Under the pieces are notes generated by a model. That model saw nothing but the letters and a program-made list of their open reading frames with translations. It was not told the origin of the DNA and made no database searches. From NCBI RefSeq assembly GCF_000328525.1, contig NC_019964.1, forward strand, positions 124,001-188,000: DNA of 64,000 nt, given 5' to 3'. Source of the DNA: Halovivax ruber XH-70 (GTDB taxonomy: Archaea > Halobacteriota > Halobacteria > Halobacteriales > Natrialbaceae). The translations under genes and the position numbers were made by a program. How positions within the stretch are numbered: position 1 is the stretch's first letter; the number at the start of each line of letters is the position of its first letter. Of this stretch, positions 32,082 to 48,663 are shown piece by piece.

Positions 32082-32287
32082 GGGCGTCGTTGAACGCGCT
32101 GGCACAAAGGGGCTACGAATCGACGATTTCGGGCCGTCAGAGCGTGTGTCGGTCGGCGGGTATCTAGACCTGTCGCTTTCTCCTCCGGGTACCAAATATC
32201 TGTCGTTTGACACGGTGGTCGGTCGGTTCTGGGGGACGACCGAATTACGCCGAACGGGTCGAGCGGACTGGCGCTGTCTCACCGGAT

Positions 32288-32326
32288 GAAACGGTGTATC
32301 GACCCGTAACATGAGGTGACTGTCGT
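32288..32326 (+). promoter_or_regulatory. shared upstream element, copy A (giant surface gene)
   Basis: GAAAC (32288-32292), 10 bp, CCCGTAACATGAGG (32303-32316), 6 bp, TCGT (32323-32326). The same arrangement with identical spacings occurs at 44170-44208 (minus strand) and 48241-48279. It ends 15 bp before ATG 32342, where the TATA box of a leaderless gene would lie, and there is no ordinary TATA box. It may therefore be the core promoter or a regulator site replacing it. Confidence 0.7.
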
Positions 32327-32341
32327 GGAAACCGGACGCCA

Positions 32342-35300
32342 ATGTTCGGATCGACACCACGGTGCGAGGGTGGGCCGTCGACGTCTAGAAGGCGGCTCCG
32401 TCTCCTCGGGGTACTGCTCGTGGGCACGCTGGTGCTGGTCGGTGGGATCGGCGGCGCCACGATTGGGGACGGGGCCGCGCTCGATGGGCTCGCGACGGAC
32501 GACGGGTCCCCCACCCCGGCCCACTCTGGCGACTCGACGACAGTCTACGGGACCTGTGAGACGACGGTTACGGACGGATCGTCCGTTCAGGATGCGGTGA
32601 ACGACTCGAGCCCCGGCGAGACGATCTGCGTGGAGGCCGGTGAGTACGCCGAGTCCGTCACGATCGACGTCGAGGGCCTCTCGCTGGTCGCCGCAGACCC
32701 TGTGGATCCGCCGATTCTCAACGGGAGCAGCCTCGAGGAGGGGACGAACGGATTCTCCGTCGATGGCGCCAACGACGTGACCGTATCCGGATTCGAGGTT
32801 CGCGAATTCGCCGGGAACGGCGTGCACGCCATCGAGAGCGACGGACTCGAGGTGACGGACGCTGCGGTACTCGACAACGATCTCGTCGGTGTCCTCGTCA
32901 ACGGATCGGCCGGCGCAACTGTGCGTGGGATCAACGCCACGAACAACGGCTGGGCGGACGACGTTCCGGGAATCCGCCTCTACGAGTCGCCCAACGCACT
33001 CGTCGAGAACAACACGGCGAACAGCAACGCGCGGCAGGGAATCAACGTCTGGGAGCACTCGGACGGTGCCGTCGTCCGGAACAACACGGCGAACGACAAC
33101 GATCGCAGCGGGATCTACGTCCAGGACGCCGACGACGCCGTCATCGAGGATAATACGGCCAATTCCAACGGACTTCGAGCGGTTCACCTGGAGGCGATCA
33201 ACGTTACGTCGATCCAGAACACCACCGTTCGCAACACCGTCGGCGTCTCGAACACTCAGAGCGGCATCCTCGTTCAGGGGGCCGACGGCACCCTTCTCGA
33301 GGGGAACACACTGGAGGACAACGCGCTCGGGTACGACGAGGAATCTCACGGCATCTACGTCACCGATTCGAGCGACGTCGTCGTCATCGAGAACGAGGTC
33401 ACCGAAACGCACACGACGGGGAACTATTTCCACGACGAGTCCGGGGTGGGCGTGTTCGTCGAGAACTCTCCCGACCCACGAATCGAGTCCAACGTCGTCG
33501 ACGCCAATCGGCGGACCGGAATCCAGATTCACGAATCGGCGCGGGCTCACGTCGAGGCAAACGCCCTGGACGACAACAACATCGACCACGACGAGCCGCT
33601 CGACTCCGGTATCACCCTCAGCGGCTCGCCGAACAGCACCGTCGTCGGCAACGTGGTCGAGCGTCACGCGAGCGCGATGCGAATCGGCTCGAACGAGACC
33701 CTCGTCGAAGCGAACACCGTCCGGGACAACGACGACGGTATCAACGTCATCTCGACCGAGACGGGCGTCACGGTCAGGGACAACCTCGTCGAGGAGAACG
33801 TCGGTTCGGATGCGGGCGATGGTCGCGGCATCAGCGTCTTCGGAGTGAGCGACGTGCTCGTCGAGAACAACACAGTGAGAGCGAACACGCTTGGAATCAG
33901 CGCGTCGACGAGCGGTGACCCGATTACGAACGTCACCGTCCGAGAGAACACGGTAAGCAATCACGAGGAGTTCGATACCGGACTGACGCACCAGGCCAAC
34001 GGCATCGCGCTCGGAAGCGTCGTCGGCGCGACCGTCGCGGATAACGTCGTCACCGACAGCGACCGGGAGGGAATCAGGCTCCGGGACGACGTCGACGAGA
34101 TCGCCGTGGCGAACAACTCCGTCACCGGACACGACGTCGACCTCGGAATCGAGGGCGTAACGAACGCGACCATCGTCGAGAACACCTTCGCGTCCGGGCT
34201 GGTGCTCTACGGTGACGACATCGATGAACCCGAACTCGACCACTTCGATCACCAGATTTCGGACAACACGGTCGGCGGCGACCCATTGTACTACGCCGTC
34301 GGCGAAGACGGCGGATCGGTCGAGGGGAGTTACGGCCAGATTGTCCTGATCGACACGACCGACGTGACCGTCGACGATCACGCGTTCTACGGCCCGGCGG
34401 TCGGCGTGCAGGTCGCGCTGAGCGACGGCGTGGCGGTGACGAACACGACCGTCTACGGTGGTGCCAACGGCATTATCGGAACGAACGCGACGGGGTTGAC
34501 CGTGACCGACAGCGCGGTCGTCGGCTCGGGCGACGGTATCTCGCTGCACGGCGACGCGAGCGGAACGACCGTCCTCGGGAGCACCGTCTCGACGACCGAC
34601 CGCGGAATCTTCGTCGCGGAGACTACCGAGGACGTGACGGTATCTCAGAGCGCCTTCCGTGACAACGAGATCGGTCTCGAATCGGACGTATACGATCAGG
34701 CACACAACGCGAGCGCGACTGACAACTGGTGGGGCGACGAGACGGGGCCGAGCGGCGACCGTACCGACCCAGTTACCGGTGTGACGGCCGATGGATCGGG
34801 AGACGAAATTGCCACGCCGGTCAACTACGAGAACGTCGCCTTCGACCCGTGGGAGCCGGACGCCCCGGGCACGTTCTTCGGCGTCGAGATTGACGTCTAC
34901 AACAGTCTCTACGGCGAGGAAGGTGACACGCTCGAAGTGAACGTGACGGTGACCAACCACGGTGACGAAGCGGGCACGCAGACGCTCGCACTCTTCGATC
35001 CGGCGTGGACCGCGCTCGACGAGAAAGCGGTTACACTCGACGCCGGAGAGTCGACCGACGTTGCGCTCTACTGGGAGACCCAGATCGGGGATGCAGACAC
35101 CGAGGAACTCTTCGCCGCGAGCGAGGACTCGATGGATGGCGCCGACTGGGTCTGGCTCGATCCTGCACCCGGCGGATTCGACGTCGCGATCGATTCGACG
35201 AACGCACCGGTAACGGAAGGTGACCCACTCGACGTCCAGGTGACCGTCGAGAACACCGGCGGCGAGGAGTCTACCCAGACGATCGAACTCGAACGGTTCG

Positions 35301-38300
35301 ACGGCCCCGTGGTCGATTCGACCGAGGTGACTCTCGGTGCGCTGAGCTCCGAGCAGCTCACGCTCACCTGGGAGACCGAGGCGGGTGATGCGGGCGACGG
35401 CGAGGTGACGGTCCTGAGCGAAGACGATTCGGTGAGTGAAGCGGTCAGTATCGATGAGCCCGAGACGACCGGAACGGTCGCCGGCACCGTCGTCGACGGG
35501 GAGACTGGCGATCCGATCGAGGGCGTCTGGGTGGCACTCAACACTGGCAGTGAGAATGTGGACTCGACGACGACCGACGCCGATGGCACGTACGAACTCT
35601 CGGCCGAATCAGGCACCTACGACGTCATCGCCGCCGTCGAATACTACGACCCTCACACCGAACCGGCCGTCGAGATACCTGTCGGTGAGACCGTATCTCA
35701 GGATTTCGAGCTGTTCCCGACCGACAGTTCCGGAACGCTCGCTGGCACCGTCACCGACGCCGCCGATGGCGACCCGATCGAGGCGGCGACCGTCGAACTC
35801 CTCGACGGCGACGGCGAGGTGCTCGAAACGGCCACGACCGACGACAGTGGCGCCTACGAACTCAGCCATAGCCCTGGCACGTACGACGTCCGGTTCGGCG
35901 CCGCCACGTACGAATTCCTGACGGTCGAGACCGTCGAAATCGAATCCGACGCTGGTACCGAGGAGAGCGTTGCACTCGATCGGGAGACGATCGGCGCGCG
36001 CTTCTCGATCGCCATCACGGACGTGACCGACCCCGTCTTCGTCGGCGAACCGCTGGCGATCGAGGCCGCGGTCGAGAACACCGGCGACGAGCAAGGTACC
36101 CAATCGATCGAACTGCACGCAGGCGGCGACGTTCTCGAAGCAACGACCGTGACACTTGGCCCCGAGGAATCGACATCTGTCTCGCTCGAGTGGGTGCCCG
36201 ACTCGGCCGACGTCGGCGTCCACGACGTCTCGGTCTGGAGCGAGGACGACGTCGACCACGCCTCCGCCGAGGTGCTTCCCGAGGGCGCCGGCTACGTGGT
36301 CGGGGCCTCGCTCGATGTCTACGATGGCGACGAGTCGGTCCTCGAGCAGGTATCGATCGATGCCGCCGTCGACGGTGACGACGTCTCACTCCGGCTGGTC
36401 TCGGACGATTCCGAGCCGACCGACGATCCATCTGACGCGATCGCGGCCGAACGTGATCTCTCGTCAGTCGGCGTCGATCCCGGAAGCACCTGGTTCGAGA
36501 TCGAGGTCCAGCTCGAGAACGTCGAGCCCGACGCGCTCGGTGGCACGGCCGAACTCGAGGAGTGGTGGACCGAGTCGAACGCCGACGGGACGACCAACGT
36601 TACCGTCCGGGCGACGACGCTCGGGACGGAGGTCCTGATCGACTGTGATACCTACGACGAGGCCGACGACTGCGAACCGCCGCTCGAGGCGTGGCCCGAT
36701 CCCGAGTCGGCCGCGACGCACTCACTCCAGTCGACCGTCGACCTCACGCTGAGCGACCTGTCGGCGCTCGCCGAGGGTGATGCAACGGCTGGGGCGCAGG
36801 TGATCACCGACGCACAACGGTTCGGATTCGACGAGGCGGACGGGGAGCGACTCACCGTCGACCTCGGGGCCCCGGCCCGCGGCGTCGACGACCAGCCGAA
36901 CGAGGGCATCTTCGTCGGGACGGTCCCAGACGGCCTGTTAGACGCCTGGGGCGTCGAGACGACGGACGAAATCGCCGTCGAGTACGGCGACGACCCCGTC
37001 GATTCGACCGTCACCGAGACCGCCGACGGCTATCGGGTCGATGTCGACCTCACGCACGGGGACGGCCCGATCACGATTCGTCCGGACGTCGACGAACCGG
37101 CGACGTTCGAGGTGTCGGTCCAATCGACGAGCGACCCCGTTCCCGAAGGGGCGACGATCATCGTCGACGCGATCGTCGAGAACGTCGGCGACGAGACGGG
37201 CTCCGAGATGGTCCAGCTGACACACCCAGCGCAGGGGCTCCTCTACGAGGTTCCGGTCGTCGATCTCGAACCGGGCGAGACGCGACTCCTCGAGTTCCAG
37301 TGGTGGACCGAGGAGGGAGACGTCGGGACGCACGACCTCTCGGTCGTCACCGACAGCCACACGGCCGAGACGACAGTCGAGGTCGAGGAACTCGGACTGG
37401 GCGTTTCGGTGTTCCCCGAACCGGCGACCGAGAACACGCCGATCATCTTTCAGACGACGTACGCGGACGATCCCGTCTGGGACTTCGACGACGGCGCGAC
37501 AGCGTTGGGTTCGAAGGTGTATCACTCCTTCGAGGACGCCGGCACGTACGACGTGACGCTCACGGACGGCGAGACCACCGAGACCGTCGCGGTCGAGATC
37601 ACCGAGCCCGAGATGACGATCGTCCAGCTGGACCCCGTCTACGGTGGCCAGCCGCTGCAGGGAGTCCCGTGGGAAGAAACCTTCCAGGCGGGCGTCTTTT
37701 CCGACGAATCGGTCGAGCAGGTCACCTTCGAACTCGACGGGGAGACGATCGTTCGTGACGGTTCGACGGGAGCCTACGCCGCGACGTTCGACCTGGGCGA
37801 ACTCGACGACGACGCCGAACTGACGATCACCGCCGAAGATCAGTTCGGGGCAACGACCGAGGCGACCCGCATGGTTCGGGTCACCGACGCGCCAGAGTGG
37901 ATCCAGTGGATTATCGACGGTGACGGCGACGTCGTCGTCGACCGGGAGGCCGGCACGATCGAGGCGCGGCACACGCCCGTCGACGTCGAGCAGGAGCTCG
38001 GCATCGAGGGAGTCCCGGTGCTCCCCGACGTCGACCTCCAGTCGTTCGAACTCTCTGCCGACGCCATCGCGGCGTACACGGCCGACCCGGTCGGCGCGGA
38101 CGTCGAGGGCGACGGCACCCTCGGCGCCACCCTCCTCGGACAGGGGATCGGCGGCGAGATCGATGCCGACGGAACCGTCGACTCGACGCTCTCACTCGAA
38201 ACGGCGACGATCGCCGCCTCGGCGTCCAGAACGGGGATCGAAGGCCCGACCGTCTTCGGCGGTGCCGTCGAGGGCCAGGAGGACAACCAACTGGAGGACG

Positions 38301-41300
38301 TCATCGTCCCCTGGACGATCGATCCGAGCGTCGAGTTCGAGGGCCACTTCGGTGAGGACTTCTCGTTCGAAGAGGGAACCGTCCAGTCCGGCACCGACAT
38401 CACCATTCTGCACGCGGCCGAACTCTTCGGCTGTGGGGTCTTCGCCGAGGGCGGCGGCGGGATGACGGCCTCGTTCGACGTCGGTCCGGAGACGGACCTG
38501 AATCCCGGCGGCTCGCTCTCGGTCGACGGCGAAATCGTCCTGGATTGTTACTACGAGTTCGAGTTCGAACTCGGCCCCTTCGAAGGAGACGTCGGAAGCG
38601 GTGGGCTCGGTCTCCAGGCGACTGGCGCACACCCAGGACCCGTCACGGTTAGCCCGCCGTCGGCAGACGGACCGAACCCGTTGCCTGGCGTTCCCACTGT
38701 TGACGACGAGTTGGGCGGGGGTGACGTCGACGCGGCCGCTCTCGCGACCGACGTCGAGACGACCGATGCCGACGGGACCGACTTCGACCGACTGACCGAT
38801 CGGCCGTTCGAGGACACGCAGCCAGCGATCGAGACCGTCGGCGACGAACTGATCGTCGTCTACAGCGCGCAGAACGAGTCCAAAGCCGCCACGGACGGCC
38901 GAGACCTTCGCGTCCGGACGCACAACCTCACGACCGGCACGTGGTCGGCCGCCGCGGACGTGACCGACGACGACGCGACCGACGAAACGCCCGCACTCGC
39001 GGCGAGCCAAGACGGGACCGCCGTCGTCTGGTCGACGCTCGAAGACGCCCCGCCGATCGAGGCGGTGGAGACGCCCGCCGATCTCTTCGGTCACTACGAG
39101 ATTGCCGTCGCTATCGACGACGGTGCTGGCTGGAGTGAACCCGATCAGCTCACCGTGAGCGAGCGGCGACAGCACAGTCCGTCCATCGTGGCGATCGACG
39201 GTGGCTGGCTGGTCGCCTGGACATCGACCGCGGCGGACGGCTCCGATTCGAACGTCCGTTACACGGTTCTGGACGATGAGGGCGAACGCGAGACGATCGA
39301 AACGATCGAGAACGCGTCTCATCCCGCCGTCGGCACAGATGGAGGCGGCGCCACACTCGCCTACGCGGCCGTCGACGACGCTGGTAACGAGACGGTCGTT
39401 ACCGCACACGTCGACGGCGAGGGACTCGTCGAATCTCACCGCCACGCGACGAATAACGTGGTCGCGGTGACGACCGCCGACGGCCGTACTGTCTGGGCAA
39501 ACGCCAGTAGGAGTAACGTGCGCGTCTTCGACGCCGACGGCGAGGGTAGCCCCACCGAACTGGCGTTCGAAGATGAACTCGTAAACGTCGACGAACTCGA
39601 ACTCGACGCACACGAGGACGACGCCGTACTCACCTACCGCGCTCGCTTCGACGGGGGATCGACGGTCGATCTCGGCTACCGCCTCGACCGCGGCGACGGG
39701 TGGATCGCCGACCACGCGTACGCGGAACTAGCCGACGAGAACCTGACCGCCTGGCACGCGGACGTGGCTGTCGGTGAGAGCACCGACGCGTTCTACTCGA
39801 CGTTCGCCGTGCAGGAACTCGACCGGTCGGCCGTCAACGACGTGTTCGTCACCGAACGCGCGTTCGCCCCGGCGTACGCGATCGAGGCGACCGCGTCAGC
39901 GGCGTCCGCCGGCGACGAGTCGACGATCGCCTACGACCTCCGGAACGTAGGCGACCGGCCGTCCACCGGTGACGTGACCGTCGTCATCGAGAACGAGACC
40001 GACGTCGTGGAGGTGCCGATCGACACGCCCCTCGAACCGGGAGTCACGGAGTCCGGGGAGATCGACGCGATCGTCGACGCGAGCGGGACGTTCGACGTTT
40101 CGGTCGCCATCGACGACGGTGACGCCACGAACGGTGTGGCTGATACAGCCGACACCCTCGGCGACGCATCGACATCGGAAACAGCGGACGAGACGACCGT
40201 CGTCGCCGCGACGCCGCGCCTGTCGGTCGACTCGGTCGACTCGTCGATGATCGACGGCGGTGACGGAAACGTGATCCTGGTCGAAGCCGTGATCGACAAC
40301 GCCGGCGGCGCCACGGCGGTCGACGTCCCGATCGCGTTCGACGACGGAACGGAGGCGCTCGAGACCGTCGACCTCGGCGCGATCGAACACGGTGAGAACG
40401 CGACCGCGACGATCACCGTAGACCCTGATGCGATCGACACCTCGGTCGCCGACAGTGTCTCGATCGGAACGGGCCAGTCGATCGACGAGTCCGCCGTGGC
40501 CAACGGCGCCCGTCCGACCTGGTTCGTCCAACCGGATCTGGACGTTGCCGGAGTCGAGTACCTTGACGTCGGGGGAGACCAGGTTGCGGAGGTGCTGATC
40601 GCCAACCGCGGGTTCGCGTCGGCGAATACGACCGTCACCGTCACGGACGAAGCCGGTGACGTTGTCGGTAACGCGACTCGATTCGTCGCGGAAGCGACGC
40701 TCGAGGAACCCGCCTTCGAGACCGTCGACGTCCCGCTCGAGGGAGTGGCCGAGGGAGCGGCGATTACCGTGGTCGCAGATACGACGATACCGGACGCCGA
40801 TCCGTCGACGACGGGACTGACCGACGAGGTCGGTCCGTTCGCCGACGTCTCCCGTCCGTCGTTCGCGGTCGACATACACGCCGACGAGACTGTCGGTCCG
40901 AACGACGAACTGGCCGTCACGCTCGACGTTGCGAACCCAGGATATCGGTCCGATACACAGCCGATCACGTTGTTGGTCGACGGCGCGGAACTGGAGACTC
41001 GAACGGTCGCGCTCGATCGTGGCGAAAAACGGACGGAAACGTTCGCCGTCGAACCGGTCGCGGGGGCCGAGACGATCGACCTCCTCGTCGAGAGCCTGAC
41101 GCCACAGGACGCTAAAACGGTGACCGTCGACGGCGACGATCCGTCCCCGCCGCCCGCGCTTCCACCCGTCCCCTCGCCGGATCCCGCCTCGTTCACCGCC
41201 GTCGACCTCGACGTCCCATCGTCCGTCGACGCCGGCGATTCGGTCACCGTCTCGACGACCGTCGAGAACGTCGGCGAGGAGACTGGTACCGCGACACTTG

Positions 41301-42502
41301 CGCTCTCCGTCGACGGCGAGGTCGTGTCCGAGGAACCGATCACCCTCGACGGCGGTGGATCGATCACGAGTACGTTCGAGCTGTCGACCGCCTCCCTGGA
41401 CCCGGGATCGATCGAAATTGCGGTGGCGATCGACGGCTCGTCGAGTTCGACAACACTGGAGATCGTCGACGAAGCCGATTCGGCCGGTGGCCCGTCCGAC
41501 GATCCCGCCGAAACGCCGGCACCGAGCGAGGACGAGTCGGACGACCCTGCAGCTGATGCGCCCGGAGACGATGCGGACGATTCCATCCCCGGCTTCGGCG
41601 TCGAAGTCGGCTTGATCGCGCTCCTCCTCGTCACCGCCGCCCGCATGAAACGACGGTCGGGGACGACGTGGCTGTCTGACGGCGCGCGTCGCCTCCGTTC
41701 GGGATGCCGATTCGACCGAAATCGCTCCGACGCGAACGGCGACGATTCCCCGCCGGCGGCGTCGCGAGTCAACCGTCGCGAACCATCGGCGGCCGATCGT
41801 CCGACGAACCGTCGCCGATGGCTTCGCCTGTGTGCCGGCGTTGGCGTCGTTGGCACGGCCGGCTGTCTCGGGGACGACGATTCGGGTGGTGACGGAAACG
41901 ACGGGTCCACCGGGCCCGACGGTGGCCCCGGCGGGGTGAGTGACGATGACGCATCAGGGGGCGAATCCATCGAGCTCGGGCCCGAAGACGGCTGGTCGGA
42001 GCCCCACGGCGATGTCGAAGTCCCCGACCAGCCTGGGACGGCGATTCTCCAGGTCGGTGGCGAACGCGTCGAACTGACCGGCATCGGGTACGCCGGCGAG
42101 GAGCCCGGCGTGACCGGCACCACGGGCGCCGAACAGTTCGAGGCGGACGGCACGTTCATGGGTGGTGCGTTCCAGGGCTCGGAGATACAGGTCGCCGTCA
42201 CGCGGATGATCGGGTACGAAGACACGTCCGGTACCTGGGCGGCGTCCGACTCGATTTCGTTCGCCCGCGGCGGCGTTCGGCTCGGCAACGTCATCTACCG
42301 CCTGTACGAGGATGGAAGACTCGCCGACTCGGAACTCGCAGGCGACATTCCCGGGCGGCGATTCGTCGACGAATCGTTCGTCCGAATCAGCCCTGACGGC
42401 GTACTCACCGCCGTCGAGACGATCGAGAGCCACGAGGACGAGTCGCTCGACGGCCAGTTTGCGTTCGGTGCGCGACTTCAAGACGGCTGGAATCAACGGT
42501 AA
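32342..42502 (+). CDS. giant multi-domain surface protein fused to a C-terminal Tat lipoprotein
   Basis: 3386 residues. Signal peptide (RRRLRLLGVLLVGTLVL) then: right-handed beta-helix of NosD type, residues ~70-806 (VVRNNTANDNDRSGIYV); CARDB domains at ~843-936 and 943-1033; two carboxypeptidase-regulatory-like domains ~1043-1213 (GTVVDGETGDPIEGV); another CARDB; a Cys-containing unknown region; a PKD domain ~1687-1753 (WDFDDGATALGSKVYHSFE); a Gly-rich stretch; a propeller-like region ~2147-2507; and more CARDBs to ~3043. Residues 3083-3104 are a PGF-CTERM-like tail (PGFGVEVGLIALLLVTAARMKRR), which should be cut and lipid-anchored by archaeosortase. Instead of stopping, the frame runs on into a Tat-type signal (RRRWLRLCAGV) with lipobox Cys 3175 and 211 more residues. 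An adhesin or envelope role is likely. An internal ATG (41645) could give a separate 285-residue lipoprotein. Confidence 0.8.
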   Translation: MFGSTPRCEGGPSTSRRRLRLLGVLLVGTLVLVGGIGGATIGDGAALDGLATDDGSPTPAHSGDSTTVYGTCETTVTDGSSVQDAVNDSSPGETICVEAGEYAESVTIDVEGLSLVAADPVDPPILNGSSLEEGTNGFSVDGANDVTVSGFEVREFAGNGVHAIESDGLEVTDAAVLDNDLVGVLVNGSAGATVRGINATNNGWADDVPGIRLYESPNALVENNTANSNARQGINVWEHSDGAVVRNNTANDNDRSGIYVQDADDAVIEDNTANSNGLRAVHLEAINVTSIQNTTVRNTVGVSNTQSGILVQGADGTLLEGNTLEDNALGYDEESHGIYVTDSSDVVVIENEVTETHTTGNYFHDESGVGVFVENSPDPRIESNVVDANRRTGIQIHESARAHVEANALDDNNIDHDEPLDSGITLSGSPNSTVVGNVVERHASAMRIGSNETLVEANTVRDNDDGINVISTETGVTVRDNLVEENVGSDAGDGRGISVFGVSDVLVENNTVRANTLGISASTSGDPITNVTVRENTVSNHEEFDTGLTHQANGIALGSVVGATVADNVVTDSDREGIRLRDDVDEIAVANNSVTGHDVDLGIEGVTNATIVENTFASGLVLYGDDIDEPELDHFDHQISDNTVGGDPLYYAVGEDGGSVEGSYGQIVLIDTTDVTVDDHAFYGPAVGVQVALSDGVAVTNTTVYGGANGIIGTNATGLTVTDSAVVGSGDGISLHGDASGTTVLGSTVSTTDRGIFVAETTEDVTVSQSAFRDNEIGLESDVYDQAHNASATDNWWGDETGPSGDRTDPVTGVTADGSGDEIATPVNYENVAFDPWEPDAPGTFFGVEIDVYNSLYGEEGDTLEVNVTVTNHGDEAGTQTLALFDPAWTALDEKAVTLDAGESTDVALYWETQIGDADTEELFAASEDSMDGADWVWLDPAPGGFDVAIDSTNAPVTEGDPLDVQVTVENTGGEESTQTIELERFDGPVVDSTEVTLGALSSEQLTLTWETEAGDAGDGEVTVLSEDDSVSEAVSIDEPETTGTVAGTVVDGETGDPIEGVWVALNTGSENVDSTTTDADGTYELSAESGTYDVIAAVEYYDPHTEPAVEIPVGETVSQDFELFPTDSSGTLAGTVTDAADGDPIEAATVELLDGDGEVLETATTDDSGAYELSHSPGTYDVRFGAATYEFLTVETVEIESDAGTEESVALDRETIGARFSIAITDVTDPVFVGEPLAIEAAVENTGDEQGTQSIELHAGGDVLEATTVTLGPEESTSVSLEWVPDSADVGVHDVSVWSEDDVDHASAEVLPEGAGYVVGASLDVYDGDESVLEQVSIDAAVDGDDVSLRLVSDDSEPTDDPSDAIAAERDLSSVGVDPGSTWFEIEVQLENVEPDALGGTAELEEWWTESNADGTTNVTVRATTLGTEVLIDCDTYDEADDCEPPLEAWPDPESAATHSLQSTVDLTLSDLSALAEGDATAGAQVITDAQRFGFDEADGERLTVDLGAPARGVDDQPNEGIFVGTVPDGLLDAWGVETTDEIAVEYGDDPVDSTVTETADGYRVDVDLTHGDGPITIRPDVDEPATFEVSVQSTSDPVPEGATIIVDAIVENVGDETGSEMVQLTHPAQGLLYEVPVVDLEPGETRLLEFQWWTEEGDVGTHDLSVVTDSHTAETTVEVEELGLGVSVFPEPATENTPIIFQTTYADDPVWDFDDGATALGSKVYHSFEDAGTYDVTLTDGETTETVAVEITEPEMTIVQLDPVYGGQPLQGVPWEETFQAGVFSDESVEQVTFELDGETIVRDGSTGAYAATFDLGELDDDAELTITAEDQFGATTEATRMVRVTDAPEWIQWIIDGDGDVVVDREAGTIEARHTPVDVEQELGIEGVPVLPDVDLQSFELSADAIAAYTADPVGADVEGDGTLGATLLGQGIGGEIDADGTVDSTLSLETATIAASASRTGIEGPTVFGGAVEGQEDNQLEDVIVPWTIDPSVEFEGHFGEDFSFEEGTVQSGTDITILHAAELFGCGVFAEGGGGMTASFDVGPETDLNPGGSLSVDGEIVLDCYYEFEFELGPFEGDVGSGGLGLQATGAHPGPVTVSPPSADGPNPLPGVPTVDDELGGGDVDAAALATDVETTDADGTDFDRLTDRPFEDTQPAIETVGDELIVVYSAQNESKAATDGRDLRVRTHNLTTGTWSAAADVTDDDATDETPALAASQDGTAVVWSTLEDAPPIEAVETPADLFGHYEIAVAIDDGAGWSEPDQLTVSERRQHSPSIVAIDGGWLVAWTSTAADGSDSNVRYTVLDDEGERETIETIENASHPAVGTDGGGATLAYAAVDDAGNETVVTAHVDGEGLVESHRHATNNVVAVTTADGRTVWANASRSNVRVFDADGEGSPTELAFEDELVNVDELELDAHEDDAVLTYRARFDGGSTVDLGYRLDRGDGWIADHAYAELADENLTAWHADVAVGESTDAFYSTFAVQELDRSAVNDVFVTERAFAPAYAIEATASAASAGDESTIAYDLRNVGDRPSTGDVTVVIENETDVVEVPIDTPLEPGVTESGEIDAIVDASGTFDVSVAIDDGDATNGVADTADTLGDASTSETADETTVVAATPRLSVDSVDSSMIDGGDGNVILVEAVIDNAGGATAVDVPIAFDDGTEALETVDLGAIEHGENATATITVDPDAIDTSVADSVSIGTGQSIDESAVANGARPTWFVQPDLDVAGVEYLDVGGDQVAEVLIANRGFASANTTVTVTDEAGDVVGNATRFVAEATLEEPAFETVDVPLEGVAEGAAITVVADTTIPDADPSTTGLTDEVGPFADVSRPSFAVDIHADETVGPNDELAVTLDVANPGYRSDTQPITLLVDGAELETRTVALDRGEKRTETFAVEPVAGAETIDLLVESLTPQDAKTVTVDGDDPSPPPALPPVPSPDPASFTAVDLDVPSSVDAGDSVTVSTTVENVGEETGTATLALSVDGEVVSEEPITLDGGGSITSTFELSTASLDPGSIEIAVAIDGSSSSTTLEIVDEADSAGGPSDDPAETPAPSEDESDDPAADAPGDDADDSIPGFGVEVGLIALLLVTAARMKRRSGTTWLSDGARRLRSGCRFDRNRSDANGDDSPPAASRVNRREPSAADRPTNRRRWLRLCAGVGVVGTAGCLGDDDSGGDGNDGSTGPDGGPGGVSDDDASGGESIELGPEDGWSEPHGDVEVPDQPGTAILQVGGERVELTGIGYAGEEPGVTGTTGAEQFEADGTFMGGAFQGSEIQVAVTRMIGYEDTSGTWAASDSISFARGGVRLGNVIYRLYEDGRLADSELAGDIPGRRFVDESFVRISPDGVLTAVETIESHEDESLDGQFAFGARLQDGWNQR

Positions 42503-42535
42503 TCGACGAACCTCGATAAGTGCCCGAGACGCCGC

Positions 42536-44074
42536 TCACTCCGCCTTTTCTCCCCGATCTGCCGCTCGTCCCGCCAGCAGGTAAGCGGCGCCCCCGATAC
42601 TCGCAATCGCGCCGAGGATTCCGGGACCCGGGAGCCCGTCGTCATCGTCCGCTCCGTCGGCCCTGCCATCGCTCCCGGAAGAGGGGGTATCGGTGCCGCT
42701 CGTATCGCCGGTACCCGCTTCCCCGTCCCCGTTCGCTTCGGGTCTGGTCCCCACCGCGGCCGCTTCGGCCCACGCGTCGTGATGACCCGACGTCCCGAGC
42801 ATCACTCGGGAGTCCTCGCTCGAGCCCGACACGCCGGCGTCGATCGCGTGGACCCGGCCGTCCTGTCCATCGGTGCTGGCGACGTAAACGATCCCGTCGA
42901 CGACGGTCGGTGCCGTCATGTCGGGGTGGAGCCCGTGATCGAGATCGTCGTCCCGGACCTGCCACGCTTCCTCGCCGCTCGCCGCATCCAGAGCGAACAC
43001 TCGGGCGCCCCTGCTACTCACGAAGACGCGGCCGCTGGCGACCGTCGCGGCGCCGATCCGGCCGCCGGTGTCGTATCGCCACTCCCGGTCGCCGCTCGTC
43101 GCGTCGATCGCGTAGAGGTGGTCGTCGTGGCTCCCAACGTAGACGACGCCATCAGCGACCGTCGGCGTCGATGTACCGTCGCCGTCCGTATCGAACCGCC
43201 ACTCCTCCTCGCCGCTCGCCGCGTCGACGGCGTGCAGCGAGCCGTCGATGGCCCCGACGTAGACGATTCCGTCGGCGACTGTCGGGGCGGCCTCGACCGG
43301 CGCGCCGACGTCGTACGTCCACTCCTCGTCGCCGTCGGTATCGACCGAAACCAGCACGCCATCGCGGCCGGCGGCGTAGACCCGGCCATCGACGACGACC
43401 GGACTTTCACCGAGCTCGTGCTCGTCGTACGTCCAGCGACTCTCGCCGGTCCAGAGATTCGTCGCGTGGAGGTACGGCGGCCCGTCGTGGTTGGTCGTGT
43501 ACGCCGTTCCGTCCGCGACCGTCGGGGCGCTCACGCGGGTGGTGACCGAGCCGCCGACGTCGGCCTCCCAGATCCGCTGACTCCGCGCGTCAACCGCTTG
43601 CAGATCGTAGGCCATGAGTTCCTGGTTGTTCGGCGCGACGGTGACGATATCGTCGACGACGTTCGGCGCTCGGTTCGTCGTCGCATTCGTGTAAATCGTC
43701 TCCACTTCGTCGCCGGTCGTGGCGTCGATGACACGCACGTGCGTGCAGGTCGTTCCCGCGTAGACGCGCCCGTCGACGACCGTCAGTGGCGCCTCGAACG
43801 TCGCCGGAGGCGGGCTACAGTCGACCGCTTCGTCGCCGTACGTCCAGACGACGGTGCCACCGTTTGCGCCCTCGGCGCTCGCGGCGCCGACGCCGCCCAG
43901 CCCCGCGACGGCGACGCCAGTGATCGCCCCCGTTCGAAGCAGCGTCCGTCGGGCGATAGGTTTCGCCTCGCTCTCGGGTGTCCGCGGGCGATCCGACCGG
44001 CTCGTAGCGGGATCGTCGTTCGTGGCGGCGGTGTCGTCCGTCGATCGGCTTCGAAATAGTGGTGTATCAGCCAT
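42536..44074 (-). CDS. Tat-exported PQQ-propeller surface protein with PGF-CTERM-like tail
   Basis: 512 residues from ATG 44074. Twin-arginine signal at about residues 38-60 (ARRTLLRTGAITGVAVAG) after a Ser/Asp-rich lead. The main body is eight or so PQQ-type blades (VDGRVYAAGRDGVLVSVD; VADGIVYVGAIDGSLHAVD; VASGRVFVSSRGARVFALD). The end has an Asp-rich linker followed by PGPGILGAIASIGGAA and a basic tail, a variant PGF-CTERM-like anchor. A longer frame from ATG 44200 is rejected because that codon falls inside the shared upstream element (44170-44208) and would put an Arg-rich piece ahead of the signal. It converges with the giant gene (33 bp apart) and lies downstream of the HTH-NTPase-TPR gene. 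Confidence 0.78.
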   Translation of the reverse strand: MADTPLFRSRSTDDTAATNDDPATSRSDRPRTPESEAKPIARRTLLRTGAITGVAVAGLGGVGAASAEGANGGTVVWTYGDEAVDCSPPPATFEAPLTVVDGRVYAGTTCTHVRVIDATTGDEVETIYTNATTNRAPNVVDDIVTVAPNNQELMAYDLQAVDARSQRIWEADVGGSVTTRVSAPTVADGTAYTTNHDGPPYLHATNLWTGESRWTYDEHELGESPVVVDGRVYAAGRDGVLVSVDTDGDEEWTYDVGAPVEAAPTVADGIVYVGAIDGSLHAVDAASGEEEWRFDTDGDGTSTPTVADGVVYVGSHDDHLYAIDATSGDREWRYDTGGRIGAATVASGRVFVSSRGARVFALDAASGEEAWQVRDDDLDHGLHPDMTAPTVVDGIVYVASTDGQDGRVHAIDAGVSGSSEDSRVMLGTSGHHDAWAEAAAVGTRPEANGDGEAGTGDTSGTDTPSSGSDGRADGADDDDGLPGPGILGAIASIGGAAYLLAGRAADRGEKAE

Positions 44075-44169
44075 TGTTGTCTCTCGTGGAAAGATACTGT
44101 CAGGTCCGTCGGCTCCGTCGACTCGCCCGACCGAACCTGTTCTCTGTCCACGTCTACACGCCCGTTCAA

Positions 44170-44208
44170 ACGAGACCGCCCTCATGTTACGGGTCGCCAT
44201 ACTGTTTC
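44170..44208 (-). promoter_or_regulatory. shared upstream element, copy B (PQQ surface gene)
   Basis: Read on the minus strand: GAAAC (44208-44204), 10 bp, CCCGTAACATGAGG (44193-44180), 6 bp, TCGT (44173-44170). It lies in the 151-bp gap between the regulator gene and the PQQ surface gene, 105 bp from ATG 44074. Same spacings as copies A and C. Confidence 0.7.
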
Positions 44209-44225
44209 ACCGCGTGAGACGACGG

Positions 44226-47200
44226 TTAGTCGCGAGTCGCCGACGTCTCGCGCCACCCGGGATGGCGTTCGACGACTTCTTCAGGGGCGCAGGCCAGCAG
44301 TGCTCTGGCCCGCTCGTCCCATTCGTCGATGGCGTCATCCTCGTCGGCCGTTTCGACGAGCGCCGCCAGCGTTTCCATGGCGAAGTGGTAGGCCTCGACC
44401 GATTCGAAGTACTCGAGCGCGTTCAGGTAGCACTCGCGAGCCGCGTCCCCCTCGCCTTCCTCGGCCGCGAGCTGCCCCAGGAACCGGTCTGCCTGCGCGA
44501 CCCAGAAGGCCGCCTGTACGTCGGTTGCCCCCTCGCGAACCTCGCGTGCGATCGATCTAGCCCGCTCGTTGTCGTCGCGGTCGCGGGCGAGTTTGGCCAT
44601 TCCCAGGCGTATCTCCAGCCCGATCAGGCTCTCTTCGTCCTCGACGGCCTCGAGCGCGGCGTCGAATCGCTCGCCGGCTCGATCGATCTCGTCGGACAGG
44701 CGTGCGATCTCGCCCAGGCAGTGGTGGCTGCCGGCGATCTGGTGGGACAGACCGACCTCGGTCGCGATTTCTAGGGCCCGCTCGCCGTACTCGCGCGCCC
44801 GGTCGACGTCTCCCTGTCTACCAGCGATCAGACCGAGGTTGGTCAGCGACTGGACCATGTCGCTCCGGTCGGCGAGTTCCTCTTTGATCTCGACGGACTG
44901 ATTGTAGTACTCGGTCGCTGTCGCGACGTTGCCCTGGCGGGCGTTGATCTGGCCGATGTTGTGCAGACACTTCGCCGTCCGGTGTCGGTCGCCGATCTCT
45001 CTGGCGAGTTCGAGCGCCTGCTCCTGGTAGGCGAGCGCGTCGGGGAAGTCGCCTCGCTGTCCCGCGATCGTCCCGAGGGTGGTCGTCGTCGTTATCACCA
45101 GCGACGTATCGCCGATCTCTCGCTTGATTTCGAGGCTCTCCTCTAAGAGCTCGATCGCCGCGTCGAAGTTATCCAGGTGCTGTTGGAGTCCGCCGAGGTT
45201 GTGAAGGGCCTTCGCGACGCCAGGACGGTCGCCAACGCGCCGACTCCCTTCTAAGCTTCGCTCGTAGAACTCGATCGCTCGATCGTACCGTTCGCGCCGG
45301 AACGCCACCACGCCGAGGTTGTTGAGACAGTTCGCGACGGCGTGTCGGTCGCCGATCGACCGCATGATCTCCAGGTGCTGTTCGAACAGTTCGGCCGCCC
45401 GGTCGTTGGCTCCCCGGTGCCAGGCGACGTTGCCCATCGAGTTCAGCACCTCCGCTTCGCCGCGTCGATCGCCCAGTTCCCGACGAATCTCGAGACTCGA
45501 TTCGAAGTACTCGAGGGCCCGGTCGTAGTCGCCGCGGTCGGAGGCGATGGCGCCGATCAGGTGCAGCGTTCTGGCCTCCTGGCCGGGACGCGACTGCGCT
45601 CGGAACGCCTCCAGTGCTGCGTCGTAGTGCGGTTCGGCCTCGTCGTAGTCGCCCCGGTCGGCCAGCGCTCGGCCGAGACAGCGGTGGGCTCGCGCGCACA
45701 ACGTCGGCCGGTCTTTGCCCTCGAGAAGCGATAGACACGCACGACAGCTGTCGATGGCCTCGTCGTACGCCCCGCGGTTGATGGCGACGCGAGCCAGTCC
45801 GAGCAGGCGTTCGCCACGCTGAGCGATGGTGTCGTTCGGTATCCGTTCGAACGCTCGCTCCGCGCGATCGTAGTAGCCGCCAGCGAGGAACAGTTCTCCG
45901 AGCCAGATCGGTATATCCCGAACCGTCGCATCCGAACATTCCTTCGGGAGATCGATCCTGTCCCGTTTCCCATCGCCGAATAGCGGCGCCAGTTGCGACC
46001 GATGCTCGCCCACGGCGTACACCGCTTCAACCGTCTCGTCGACCCATCGCCGCGGCTCGTCACGAATCTCGGCGAGTCCGAACGGTCCGTCGACGTGTCC
46101 GGCGATCCGATCGATCCGCGCCGGATCCGCCGCGAGTGCGAGGACGTCGCTCACGACAGTCCCGAATTGTTCGGCGGCCCGTTCCGCTCCCGCCGCTTCG
46201 ATGACGTGTGCGAGAAGCGCCGTCGACCACTCCTCGTGGACCGTCCGGTACCGCCCGCCGCGTCCGGGGAAGAGAACCCGTCCCTCCAGGCGGGAAATCG
46301 CGTCGTCGACGGCGTCGAACGCCGTTTCGTCCCCGACCGCGTACAGGAGGCCCCGATCGATGCCGATTCCCGCCGCGTTGAGCACGTTGGCGAGGATACA
46401 GACGGATCGAGCTGTCTCGTCGTTTGCTACCTCGTCGTAGACCGCGGCGACAGCGTCTTCGAGCGCGGTCGGTTCGTTTGCGAGCGGGTCGGCGTACGTC
46501 GAGAGCCGGTGGACGAGTCGGAGCAGTTCGTGCGTCCTGTCGCCACCTTCGGTGGTCTCGTCTCGAATCGACGACCACAGCTCCTCGGCGGGGACGTCGA
46601 ACGCGCGTTCGACGGTCCGTTCGAAGTGGTCGACGAGTCGCTCGCAGTCTCGCTCCCGGAGCGGCGGGACGTACGTTACCTCGAGACCGGTGCTCTCGGT
46701 CGACCGGGCGATCCGCTTTCGCCACTCGCTCTCGCGGGAATCGAGGAGCACGCTGACGTCCTCGCGATGACCGATCCGCTCTAGCACCTCGAAGATGGCC
46801 TCGGCATCCCCTCTAACAGCGTCTTCGACGACGACGAGCGCGTGGCCGTCGGCGGCCGTCGCCGTCGCGACGAGTTCCTCGATCGATTCGAAGGAGCGGT
46901 CGTGGTGCGCCTCGCGATAGTACACCGGTCCGCGGTCGCGCTCGTACCAGTCGCAGGCGACTTGCTTGCAGATCGTACTCTTTCCGGATCCCGGCGGCCC
47001 GAGAACGATCGTATTTCGCCCGTCGCGGAGCGCCTCGGAGACGGAGTCGGCGATTCCCTGACGGTCGTCGGCTCTCTCCTCGGCGCTGCGACCGTCTCTC
47101 GATCCGTCGGTCTCGGTTTGAACGGGTCGGTCGATCGCGTAGCCGGTGTGCACCTCGGCGAGCGAGAGCCCGGCCCGCCAGGCCATCGGCGGCTTCGCGA

Positions 47201-48125
47201 CGGGTTCGTTCCGAAAGTACTCGCCGTCGATCCGAACGAATCCGTCGCGTTCGAGTGCCACCGGAAGCGATTGTCCGATCGCTGGTGACTCTCTCCTCCG
47301 AGTCGGCTGCGATCGATCGCCGGGAAGCAAGTCGACCGTCCGGTCCGTTGCCGTCTCCCGATAACGCTCGTACTGCGTCGTCGCCCACGAAACGCCGCGG
47401 TCGGTTCGGTTGAAGAGCGCCCCGTGAATTCCGCCAGTTTCGGCGTGGACGACGAGATGCGCCTGGCCGGCCGCCGGTCGACCGCGGTCGGAGTCGCGTT
47501 CGAGCAGTCCGAGGCCGTACGGCGGAACCTCGCCGACGTACACGGTGAATGCGTCGGCCTGAGCGAGCACAGCCATTCGCCGCGGAAACTCGCTTCCTAA
47601 CGTTTGAAACACCGCGGCGGATACCACGAGCTCGACCGGTTTCTCCCGGGTGACGGCCAGCTCGTACAACGCCCTAACGGTCCGCGATTCCTCGATCGTC
47701 GGAACCAGCGCCCGGTAGGCCGTCGCCTCGCTTACAGCCTCGACGAGCCGATCGGCCGGTCTGTAGGGTGCCGGCTCCGTCGCCAGGATCCCGTCGGCTC
47801 CCGTCACCAGATCGTACGCGATGTCGGTTTCCGCTGGCAGGGGAGCGAGGATCGCGTGCGTCGTCAGGATGTCGTCGAGCGTCTCGAGGTACTCGGTAAG
47901 TTGATCGCGAGCGAACCGGCCGGTGAGCGTCGCTTCGATACCGTCGTCGCCACGTCGGGCGAGGTCGAGCGCTTCGAGTTCCTTGATCGCCCGATGGACC
48001 GTCGACCGAGCCTGGCCCGTTTCGTCGATAATGTCGCGAACGTGTGCTGGCGATACACAGAGTCGATCGAGGAGATCGAGCCGGCTGAGTAGCGTTTCCG
48101 CCTCACCGCTCCGGTCGGTTGACAT
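44226..48125 (-). CDS. HTH-FilR1-like-NTPase-TPR signal-transducing regulator
   Basis: 1299 residues. Residues ~10-75: winged helix (CVSPAHVRDIIDETGQARS; TVHRAIKELEALDLARRGDD). Residues ~100-270 resemble the FilR1 middle domain of archaeal transcription regulators (TLGSEFPRRMAVLAQ; GEVPPYGLGLLERD). Residues 376-383 are a Walker A loop (GPPGSGKST) and ~425-435 a Walker B-like strand (HALVVVEDAV), the core of a NACHT/STAND-like or AAA-like NTPase. Residues ~700-1200 contain about twelve ~40-residue TPRs (CLNNLGVVAFRRERYDRAIE). The layout recalls MalT-type STAND activators, with sensor repeats, NTPase switch and DNA-binding domain, but with an archaeal HTH at the N-terminus. TATATT-type element 48156-48162 lies ~34 bp upstream. 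It sits among three genes with a shared upstream element and is the natural candidate for their regulator (inference). Confidence 0.85.
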   Translation of the reverse strand: MSTDRSGEAETLLSRLDLLDRLCVSPAHVRDIIDETGQARSTVHRAIKELEALDLARRGDDGIEATLTGRFARDQLTEYLETLDDILTTHAILAPLPAETDIAYDLVTGADGILATEPAPYRPADRLVEAVSEATAYRALVPTIEESRTVRALYELAVTREKPVELVVSAAVFQTLGSEFPRRMAVLAQADAFTVYVGEVPPYGLGLLERDSDRGRPAAGQAHLVVHAETGGIHGALFNRTDRGVSWATTQYERYRETATDRTVDLLPGDRSQPTRRRESPAIGQSLPVALERDGFVRIDGEYFRNEPVAKPPMAWRAGLSLAEVHTGYAIDRPVQTETDGSRDGRSAEERADDRQGIADSVSEALRDGRNTIVLGPPGSGKSTICKQVACDWYERDRGPVYYREAHHDRSFESIEELVATATAADGHALVVVEDAVRGDAEAIFEVLERIGHREDVSVLLDSRESEWRKRIARSTESTGLEVTYVPPLRERDCERLVDHFERTVERAFDVPAEELWSSIRDETTEGGDRTHELLRLVHRLSTYADPLANEPTALEDAVAAVYDEVANDETARSVCILANVLNAAGIGIDRGLLYAVGDETAFDAVDDAISRLEGRVLFPGRGGRYRTVHEEWSTALLAHVIEAAGAERAAEQFGTVVSDVLALAADPARIDRIAGHVDGPFGLAEIRDEPRRWVDETVEAVYAVGEHRSQLAPLFGDGKRDRIDLPKECSDATVRDIPIWLGELFLAGGYYDRAERAFERIPNDTIAQRGERLLGLARVAINRGAYDEAIDSCRACLSLLEGKDRPTLCARAHRCLGRALADRGDYDEAEPHYDAALEAFRAQSRPGQEARTLHLIGAIASDRGDYDRALEYFESSLEIRRELGDRRGEAEVLNSMGNVAWHRGANDRAAELFEQHLEIMRSIGDRHAVANCLNNLGVVAFRRERYDRAIEFYERSLEGSRRVGDRPGVAKALHNLGGLQQHLDNFDAAIELLEESLEIKREIGDTSLVITTTTTLGTIAGQRGDFPDALAYQEQALELAREIGDRHRTAKCLHNIGQINARQGNVATATEYYNQSVEIKEELADRSDMVQSLTNLGLIAGRQGDVDRAREYGERALEIATEVGLSHQIAGSHHCLGEIARLSDEIDRAGERFDAALEAVEDEESLIGLEIRLGMAKLARDRDDNERARSIAREVREGATDVQAAFWVAQADRFLGQLAAEEGEGDAARECYLNALEYFESVEAYHFAMETLAALVETADEDDAIDEWDERARALLACAPEEVVERHPGWRETSATRD

Positions 48126-48155
48126 TTGTTGATTCGGACATCGCTTCCATCTGCC

Positions 48156-48163
48156 TTATATTC
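48156..48163 (-). promoter_or_regulatory. TATA box of the HTH-NTPase-TPR gene
   Basis: The minus strand reads GAATATAAGG here, centred about 34 bp upstream of ATG 48125, giving a leader of only a few bases. The regulator therefore has an ordinary promoter, unlike the box-bearing surface genes. Confidence 0.5.
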
Positions 48164-48240
48164 ATCGTGCGTGAAGCCTGGCAGTTCGAAACCGTTGTCG
48201 GCGGGTTTCCTCCGGTTCGGACGGTGCCGTTCTACGCGGC

Positions 48241-48279
48241 GAAACACCGTTTCGTCCCGTAACATGAGGTGGGTCTCGT
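48241..48279 (+). promoter_or_regulatory. shared upstream element, copy C (YadA-like operon)
   Basis: GAAAC (48241-48245), 10 bp, CCCGTAACATGAGG (48256-48269), 6 bp, TCGT (48276-48279). It lies in the divergent region between the regulator gene and the broken small gene/YadA-like operon and points towards the latter. It is also 116 bp from the regulator start and could serve feedback control. Confidence 0.7.
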
Positions 48280-48364: not shown

Positions 48365-48624
48365 ATGACTGTCAGTATCCCATTACAGCAGCGACCCGGA
48401 ACGGATCGATCGATCGGCCGCCTCGAGGCGCGCCTCGACGAAACGCCAGCAACCTTCTCGATAATGCGGACTTTCTCGGAGTCAGACTCGACTCGACTAG
48501 CGCGAACGGCCAGCTGGACCGATTCGAGATGGCCGCTCGCTCGTCAGAAGCGCTGTTCGCTCCCACGATCACGACTGTTCCGCCGACGGAGCACTCGAGT
48601 CAGCACAGCAAACATCTCGTGTGA
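48365..48624 (+). pseudogene. probable frameshifted small gene ahead of the YadA-like gene
   Basis: From ATG 48365 the first ~30 codons look haloarchaeal (RLEARLDETPAT), after which the frame becomes Arg/Ser-rich nonsense. A different frame then carries sensible codons (DFLGVRLDSTSANGQLDRF; FEMAARSSEALFAPT) up to TGA 48622-48624. One frame change near 48455 would join them into a protein of about 85 residues. It could be a sequencing error or a real disabling mutation. If intact, it would be the first gene of the operon driven by copy C of the shared element. No family recognised. Confidence 0.35.
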
Positions 48625-48663
48625 CCGCTCAGACCCTCGCTCTATCGAAGGGGGTGGTCGCCG

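Follow-up and report, generated by a model that had tools for sequence, protein, structure and literature searches.

Genes and repeated elements of the locus

The window, i.e., the whole 64,000-nucleotide stretch of Halovivax ruber XH-70 DNA that was analysed, contains three units encoding exported proteins (A, B and C) and a gene for a large multidomain protein, the putative regulator (Table 1). The sequence GAAAC-N10-CCCGTAACATGAGG-N6-TCGT occurs in the window in three exact copies, at 32288-32326 (+), 44170-44208 (-) and 48241-48279 (+), and the scan found zero mismatches, which confirms the original prediction. All three copies lie inside 16 kb and enclose the regulator gene. Each is directed towards a gene of an exported protein, copies A and B, and likewise B and C, being opposed in orientation.

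Table 1. Coordinates of the genes and elements of the locus (positions in the window)
Feature	Position	Strand	Description
Copy A	32279..32326	+	TCAC 32279-32282; dyad TGAAACGGTGTATCG 32287-32301; CCCGTAACATGAGG 32303-32316; TCGT 32323-32326
Target A	32342..42502	+	Giant right-handed beta-helix/CARDB exported protein, 3386 aa, hydrophobic signal
Target B	42536..44074	-	PQQ-type beta-propeller, twin-arginine motif, Tat-exported, 512 aa, start 44074
Copy B	44170..44217	-	Left arm TCAC 44217-44214; dyad TGAAACAGTATGGCG; CCCGTAACATGAGG 44193-44180
Regulator	44226..48125	-	1299 aa; winged helix HVO_A0261_N, long helix, FilR1_middle, STAND NTPase, TPR sensor
TATA-like AATATAA of the regulator gene	48156..48162	-	About 31-37 nt ahead of the start codon of the regulator gene
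Copy C	48232..48279	+	Degenerate left arm CTAC 48232-48235; dyad CGAAACACCGTTTCG; CCCGTAACATGAGG 48256-48269; TCGT
Small ORF of unit C	48365..48667	+	100 aa; first in the unit; start region conserved in two related genomes
Target C1	48664..50238	+	Coiled coil, Tat signal and YadA/UspA1-like head, 524 aa
Target C2	50240..51442	+	Exported, CARDB domain, 400 aa, GTG start

With up to three mismatches allowed, no match beyond the three copies was found in the window, and 100 dinucleotide shuffles of the window gave zero matches. A 29-base version of the pattern, searched with up to three mismatches in the whole genome (3,223,876 bases), matched only the three window copies, and its reversed control gave zero matches in the same scan. 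The absence of matches in the shuffles and in the reversed control excludes chance, and the element is a real, specific cis-element.

Protein A contains a PGF-CTERM-like sorting stretch (residues 3079-3105) and runs about 280 residues past it (41576-42502 (+) in the window), while the orthologue in genome G361 ends just after the stretch. The residues added in this way (about 3208-3385) have counterparts in separate DNA close to B-like genes of genomes G344 (60%) and G282 (49%). Because of these matches, it seems that a stop codon of target A was lost and two genes were fused. In C1, an archaeal protein with a Tat signal, region 178-412 is similar to the UspA1 head (E 8e-19), UspA1 being a trimeric autotransporter adhesin.

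The putative regulator

The Pfam search assigned the N-terminal winged helix of the regulator to HVO_A0261_N (E 4.1e-11) and the NTPase to nSTAND_NTPase5 (E 2.1e-15); the sensor repeats match TPR_12 (E 4.5e-84) and TPR_MalT (E 4.8e-24). The Walker motifs are intact (P-loop GPPGSGKS at 376, Walker B ALVVVED at 429), and residues G376, G379, G381-T384 and E434-D435 are invariant over 12 homologues. There is no G-x-P at the expected place of the GxP motif of the HD helix; it is perhaps represented, in degenerate form, by ADPLA at about 545-549. The predicted fold of residues 1-276 (pLDDT 88.8) comprises a winged helix, a 27-residue helix and an alpha/beta domain, and the top PDB structural match of this model is the DNA-binding protein TrmBL2 (Foldseek E 1.4e-7), followed by PLD-fold proteins. 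The promoter of the regulator gene itself carries an ordinary TATA-like sequence, unlike the TATA-less target promoters. A comparison of the regulator with 84,980 named genomes yielded zero confirmed relatives, and no match was found in the viral contigs searched.

Occurrence of the element among Halobacteria

The scan of 391 Halobacteria genomes with up to two mismatches revealed 14 genuine copies (three in G000, three in G361, four in G046, three in G253 and one in G212), present only in the five genomes that encode full-length homologues of the regulator (48-62% identity). The copies lie ahead of exported-protein genes, 13 of the 14 not more than 30 kb from the regulator gene. Six other genomes contain one scattered match with two mismatches each, the reversed-control background being five, and none of the six combines the outer arms with the start-codon geometry described below. 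Many copies in unrelated places would have spoken against the original prediction, and the scan for them did not refute it.

Orthologues of B were found in the same five genomes and in the two more distant ones, G282 and G344, where the B-like (PQQ) gene is present and the element is absent. A close homologue of the regulator is missing in G282, which is not among the regulator matches, and the match in G344 covers residues 8-259 only, with 29% identity. The element is conserved ahead of orthologous genes despite different gene orders. One copy in G046 precedes the orthologue of the C operon on a contig other than that of the regulator, and the location of site and regulator on different contigs suggests that the regulator acts in trans. 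In genome G361, two STAND regulators of this clade lie in tandem and do not differ in the recognition helix (L051 10780-18195 (-)); two further paralogues are also present there (L053 and L072).

Architecture of the element and promoter geometry

Within the N10 spacer lies the other half of a palindrome, which reads GAAACACCGTTTC in copy C and GAAACAGTGTTTC in relatives; the inverted repeat of copy C, CGAAAC-ACC-GTTTCG, is perfect. Outside it, a further pair of arms lengthens the element upstream, as far as 32279 in copy A, where the right arm GTAAC (32306-32310) lies inside CCCGTAACATGAGG. Comparison with relatives gave the clade consensus GTCCCAC-N4-TGAAACAGTGTTTCA-N-CCCGTAACATGAGG-N6-TCg. 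The element is a clade-specific form of the nested dyad TCAC-N4-TGAnAC-N3-GTnTCA-N4-GTGA. In the H. ruber genome, the generic four-arm pattern is matched best by copy A. The alignment of the copy B orthologues shows the element kept and both flanks diverged; a column-wise test of symmetry beyond composition was uninformative, since the columns hardly vary.

The first C of CCCGTAACATGAGG is situated 39 or 40 nt before the ATG opening a long exported-protein ORF in eight of the 14 copies, including copy A (39 nt ahead of the ATG at 32342). The remaining six, namely H. ruber copy B and the C-type and lipoprotein-type copies, have no long-ORF start codon at this distance. The distance from CCC to the start codon is 119 nt in copy B, as compared to 39-40 nt in four orthologues; the three C-type operon copies have a longer leader containing a conserved small ORF, and the lipoprotein-type site, found in the pair of genomes G046 and G253, is outside the 39-40 nt geometry.

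The element occupies the BRE/TATA position of the targets, and no TATA box is visible there. A TATA-like sequence at about -27 is absent in the targets of clade 1, where ATGAGG is found at about -31 to -26 instead; the ordinary haloarchaeal promoter, with BRE CGAAA and TATA TTWT, served as a reference (PMC4983044). Leaderless transcription is common among haloarchaea (PMC8241225), and, if it is assumed here, GTAAC coincides with the BRE and ATGAGG with the TATA position. The earlier suggestion that copy A lies where a TATA box should be is supported, and it is possible that the element replaces the core promoter.

Recognition helices and variants of the site

The recognition helix Q[AS]RSTVHRA pairs with TGAAACAGTGTTTCA and CCCGTAACATGAGG, and the helix QSRATINRA, found in paralogous regulators (G361r3 and G253 C19), pairs with TGAG.TGG.GTCTCA-N2-CCGTGAGATGATG. 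The latter type of site occurs only in G361 and G253 among the 391 genomes, 39 nt ahead of a large exported-protein gene, which encodes a beta-helix protein in G253. The third type belongs to G361r2 with the helix QSRSTINRA, where TGAAACAGTGTTCCA-CACCGTGGAATATTC is located at 40 nt. Another family is characterised by the helix HSRSTVSRA, and its representative in G083 has two sites at 39-40 nt. A site was sought in G024 because its regulator has this helix in common with that of G083, and a related site was found before the orthologous gene, again at 39-40 nt. Regulators with a common recognition helix thus have a common site.

The regulators G253 C19, G361r2 and that of G179 again adjoin beta-helix or PQQ-repeat genes. 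The G179 regulator is accompanied by a GTGAACACGTTCAC dyad 41 nt before a PQQ-repeat gene, with a centre of 2 nt, not 3 nt (L066 about 8900-8930 (-)). The G083 operator precedes a gene for a berberine-bridge-type FAD oxidase, and the second site precedes a lipoprotein-like gene (L070 8810-10240 (-)); with such targets, the regulator family is not confined to giant surface proteins. A CRISPR-like repeat array (GTTTCAATTCCGTTGTGGATTTTCTCCCTGCTGCGAC) is located near a paralogous regulator of G361 (L053 15300-16300 (+)).

Putative operators of distant regulators

The distant set comprised 37 regulators with less than 45% identity, not all of them independent (e.g., L108, L109 and L111). The inner dyad TGAnAC-N3-GTnTCA was searched for with two mismatches allowed, and the outer TCA/TGA arms were not used in the selection. 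The density of the inner dyad was 0.77 per kb within 300 bp of these regulators and 0.19 per kb far away. The outer arms accompany 13 of the 17 near matches (up to 300 bp) and none of the 67 far ones. Many sites are located 62-83 bp ahead of the regulator's own start, and several lie before the regulator itself and are followed by a good TATA-like box (GTGAGTTTTAATA); a TATA-like sequence after the operator was noted in several relatives. A recognisable site nearby is not a feature of every regulator of the family (13 of the 37 distant ones).

In the ranking of all 1024 half-sites, TGAnAC came first over 46 regulators and only third for the 37 distant ones judged on the inner dyad alone. This indicates that the inner dyad alone is not decisive and that the outer arms are. 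A first, rigid generic pattern missed most sites of the family. Comparison of all start-codon upstream regions returned mostly coding repeats and the CRISPR-like array, but gave the clue to G083.

Proposed function and alternative explanations

Whether the STAND regulator whose gene lies among the copies activates or represses, the element is very probably its operator, and the most likely arrangement is a local STAND regulon that comprises the three units of exported proteins, with the element as a putative operator-promoter. The function in cis ahead of exported-protein units, as proposed originally, is supported, and so is the choice of the HTH-NTPase-TPR protein as the most likely binder. 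The idea of a surface-protein regulon stands in part: the targets in this clade are exported, but distant operators precede a gene for an FAD-linked oxidase or a regulator gene, and the putative targets of the operator family are not all surface proteins. A wide surface-protein regulon was not found, as there is one cluster only, with three units around one regulator gene, all within 16 kb. The regulon is therefore smaller than first thought, and the kind of site is wider.

The sequences establish where the element lies, its geometry and conservation, its confinement to the surroundings of the regulator gene, and that it co-occurs and co-varies with the regulator; binding, multimerisation, leaderless starts, control by ATP and an inducer, and activation are inferred. 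The regulator probably activates rather than represses, in the author's judgement. In the suggested mechanism, the winged helices would bind the nested dyad TCAC-N4-TGAnAC-N3-GTnTCA-N4-GTGA, with its right outer arm on the BRE and the conserved ATGAGG at the place of the TATA box, about 26-31 nt before the start codon, with which the transcription start probably coincides. Once an inducer has reached the TPR sensor and ATP has been loaded onto the NTPase, the regulator would multimerise on the four half-sites. The multimer would then recruit TFB/TBP to a core promoter of little strength by itself, and the three surface-protein units would be switched on. Activation is preferred since the targets are TATA-less and characterised STAND regulators are mainly activators.

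With the same operator and regulator, it is also conceivable, if rather unlikely, that the regulator is a repressor covering the BRE until an inducer releases it. Many archaeal repressor sites overlap the BRE. The coincidence of the right arm GTAAC/GTGAG with the BRE keeps repression under consideration, and the distant members located at the promoter of their own gene beside a TATA-like box suit autorepression. On the other hand, the promoters left by mere derepression would be poor ones, since the clade targets are TATA-less, and among the bacterial STAND transcription factors that have been characterised activators predominate (PMC6468293).

It is highly improbable that the element is an alternative core promoter for one of the multiple TFB/TBP variants of haloarchaea and not a site for the STAND protein. 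Its position exactly at BRE/TATA without a TATA box would suit such a factor, but a general factor would be expected to act at further places in the 3.2 Mb, beyond the three clustered ones, and the presence of the element tracks the STAND gene across the 391 genomes, as the site variants track the STAND recognition helix. The opposite orientation of A/B and B/C could suggest recombination or mobile-element sites, e.g., inversion between opposed copies; this can scarcely be credited, since the spacing to the start codons is fixed, nothing is common beyond the element, and the copies are kept before orthologous genes in different gene orders. Nor is there much to recommend the view that the copies arose by recent duplication of an upstream region and have no function of their own. 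The inner 14 bases are indeed identical in all three copies, but the element has stayed the same where its spacers and flanks have diverged, both from copy to copy in this genome and from one orthologue to another, and the alignment of orthologues contradicts this view.

Returning to the operator of the STAND regulator, a broader generalisation can be put forward as speculation that is doubtful at present. Each regulator of a large haloarchaeal STAND-TPR family would control its own small cassette, often of giant surface proteins, through a four-armed operator, and in one clade the operator would double as a TATA-less core promoter, the STAND multimer and not a TATA box placing TBP/TFB.

Comparison with known systems

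The archaeal STAND protein PH0952 of Pyrococcus horikoshii, with an ArsR-like HTH and a TPR sensor, is a predicted transcription factor (PMC6468293, PDB 6MFV). Like the regulator in the window, it is archaeal and combines an N-terminal HTH, a STAND NTPase and a TPR sensor, but in the window regulator the HTH is followed by one more domain, of FilR1_middle/PLD-like type. The available part of the source names no DNA site or target gene for PH0952 (PMC6468293), while both are proposed here. In the PDB sequence search with the regulator, 6MFV was not among the best 60 matches, all of which are TPR proteins.

The DNA-binding domain of MalT is located at the end of the protein opposite to that in the window regulator. 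MalT of Escherichia coli resembles the regulator in its STAND NTPase and TPR-type sensor and is an inducer- and ATP-dependent multimeric transcription factor (PMC6468293). It differs in being a bacterial activator that works with the bacterial core promoter machinery. Multimerisation of a STAND protein on inducer and ATP would suit a site with four half-sites.

The predicted winged helix, long helix and PLD-like middle domain of the regulator are reminiscent of TrmB/TrmBL2; TrmB has no STAND or TPR part, and the sequence identity of the fold match is only 9%. The sites of TrmB type are of the TCAC...GTGA kind. FilR1 of Methanosaeta harundinacea, a part of a two-component system regulating methanogenesis (PMC3991700), has the FilR1_middle domain in common with the regulator (Pfam) and lacks the STAND module.

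As regards the sites, the GvpE upstream activating sequence of haloarchaeal gas-vesicle promoters is a 20-nt activator site directly upstream of BRE/TATA (PMC8241225). The likeness is confined to promoter geometry and to the way of working: the activator is unrelated, an ordinary BRE/TATA is retained, and there is no nested four-arm dyad. The motif of CsmR of Haloferax volcanii, TATCA-N4-TGATA, is likewise promoter-proximal, semi-palindromic and read by a winged helix; it adjoins the TATA box, and its sequence and spacing differ from those of the window element. CsmR is a small protein of 13 kDa, its motif is present in 50 of 65 peaks genome-wide, and its targets rise on deletion (PMC13286277).

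The literature search for a STAND-type haloarchaeal regulator returned only PH0952 and MalT, and no reported DNA site or target was found in it for any archaeal STAND transcription factor, though the structure of PH0952 has been solved. For archaeal STAND factors there are now a candidate site, candidate targets and several specificity classes found in nature, to which the recognition helices correspond, and binding and control by these giant STAND switches become directly testable in culturable haloarchaea. The locus is, in addition, an example of a TATA box seemingly replaced by an operator. If the four-armed operator does serve as a TATA-less core promoter, this would mean that a switch of the APAF1/MalT type has been built into archaeal promoter recognition.
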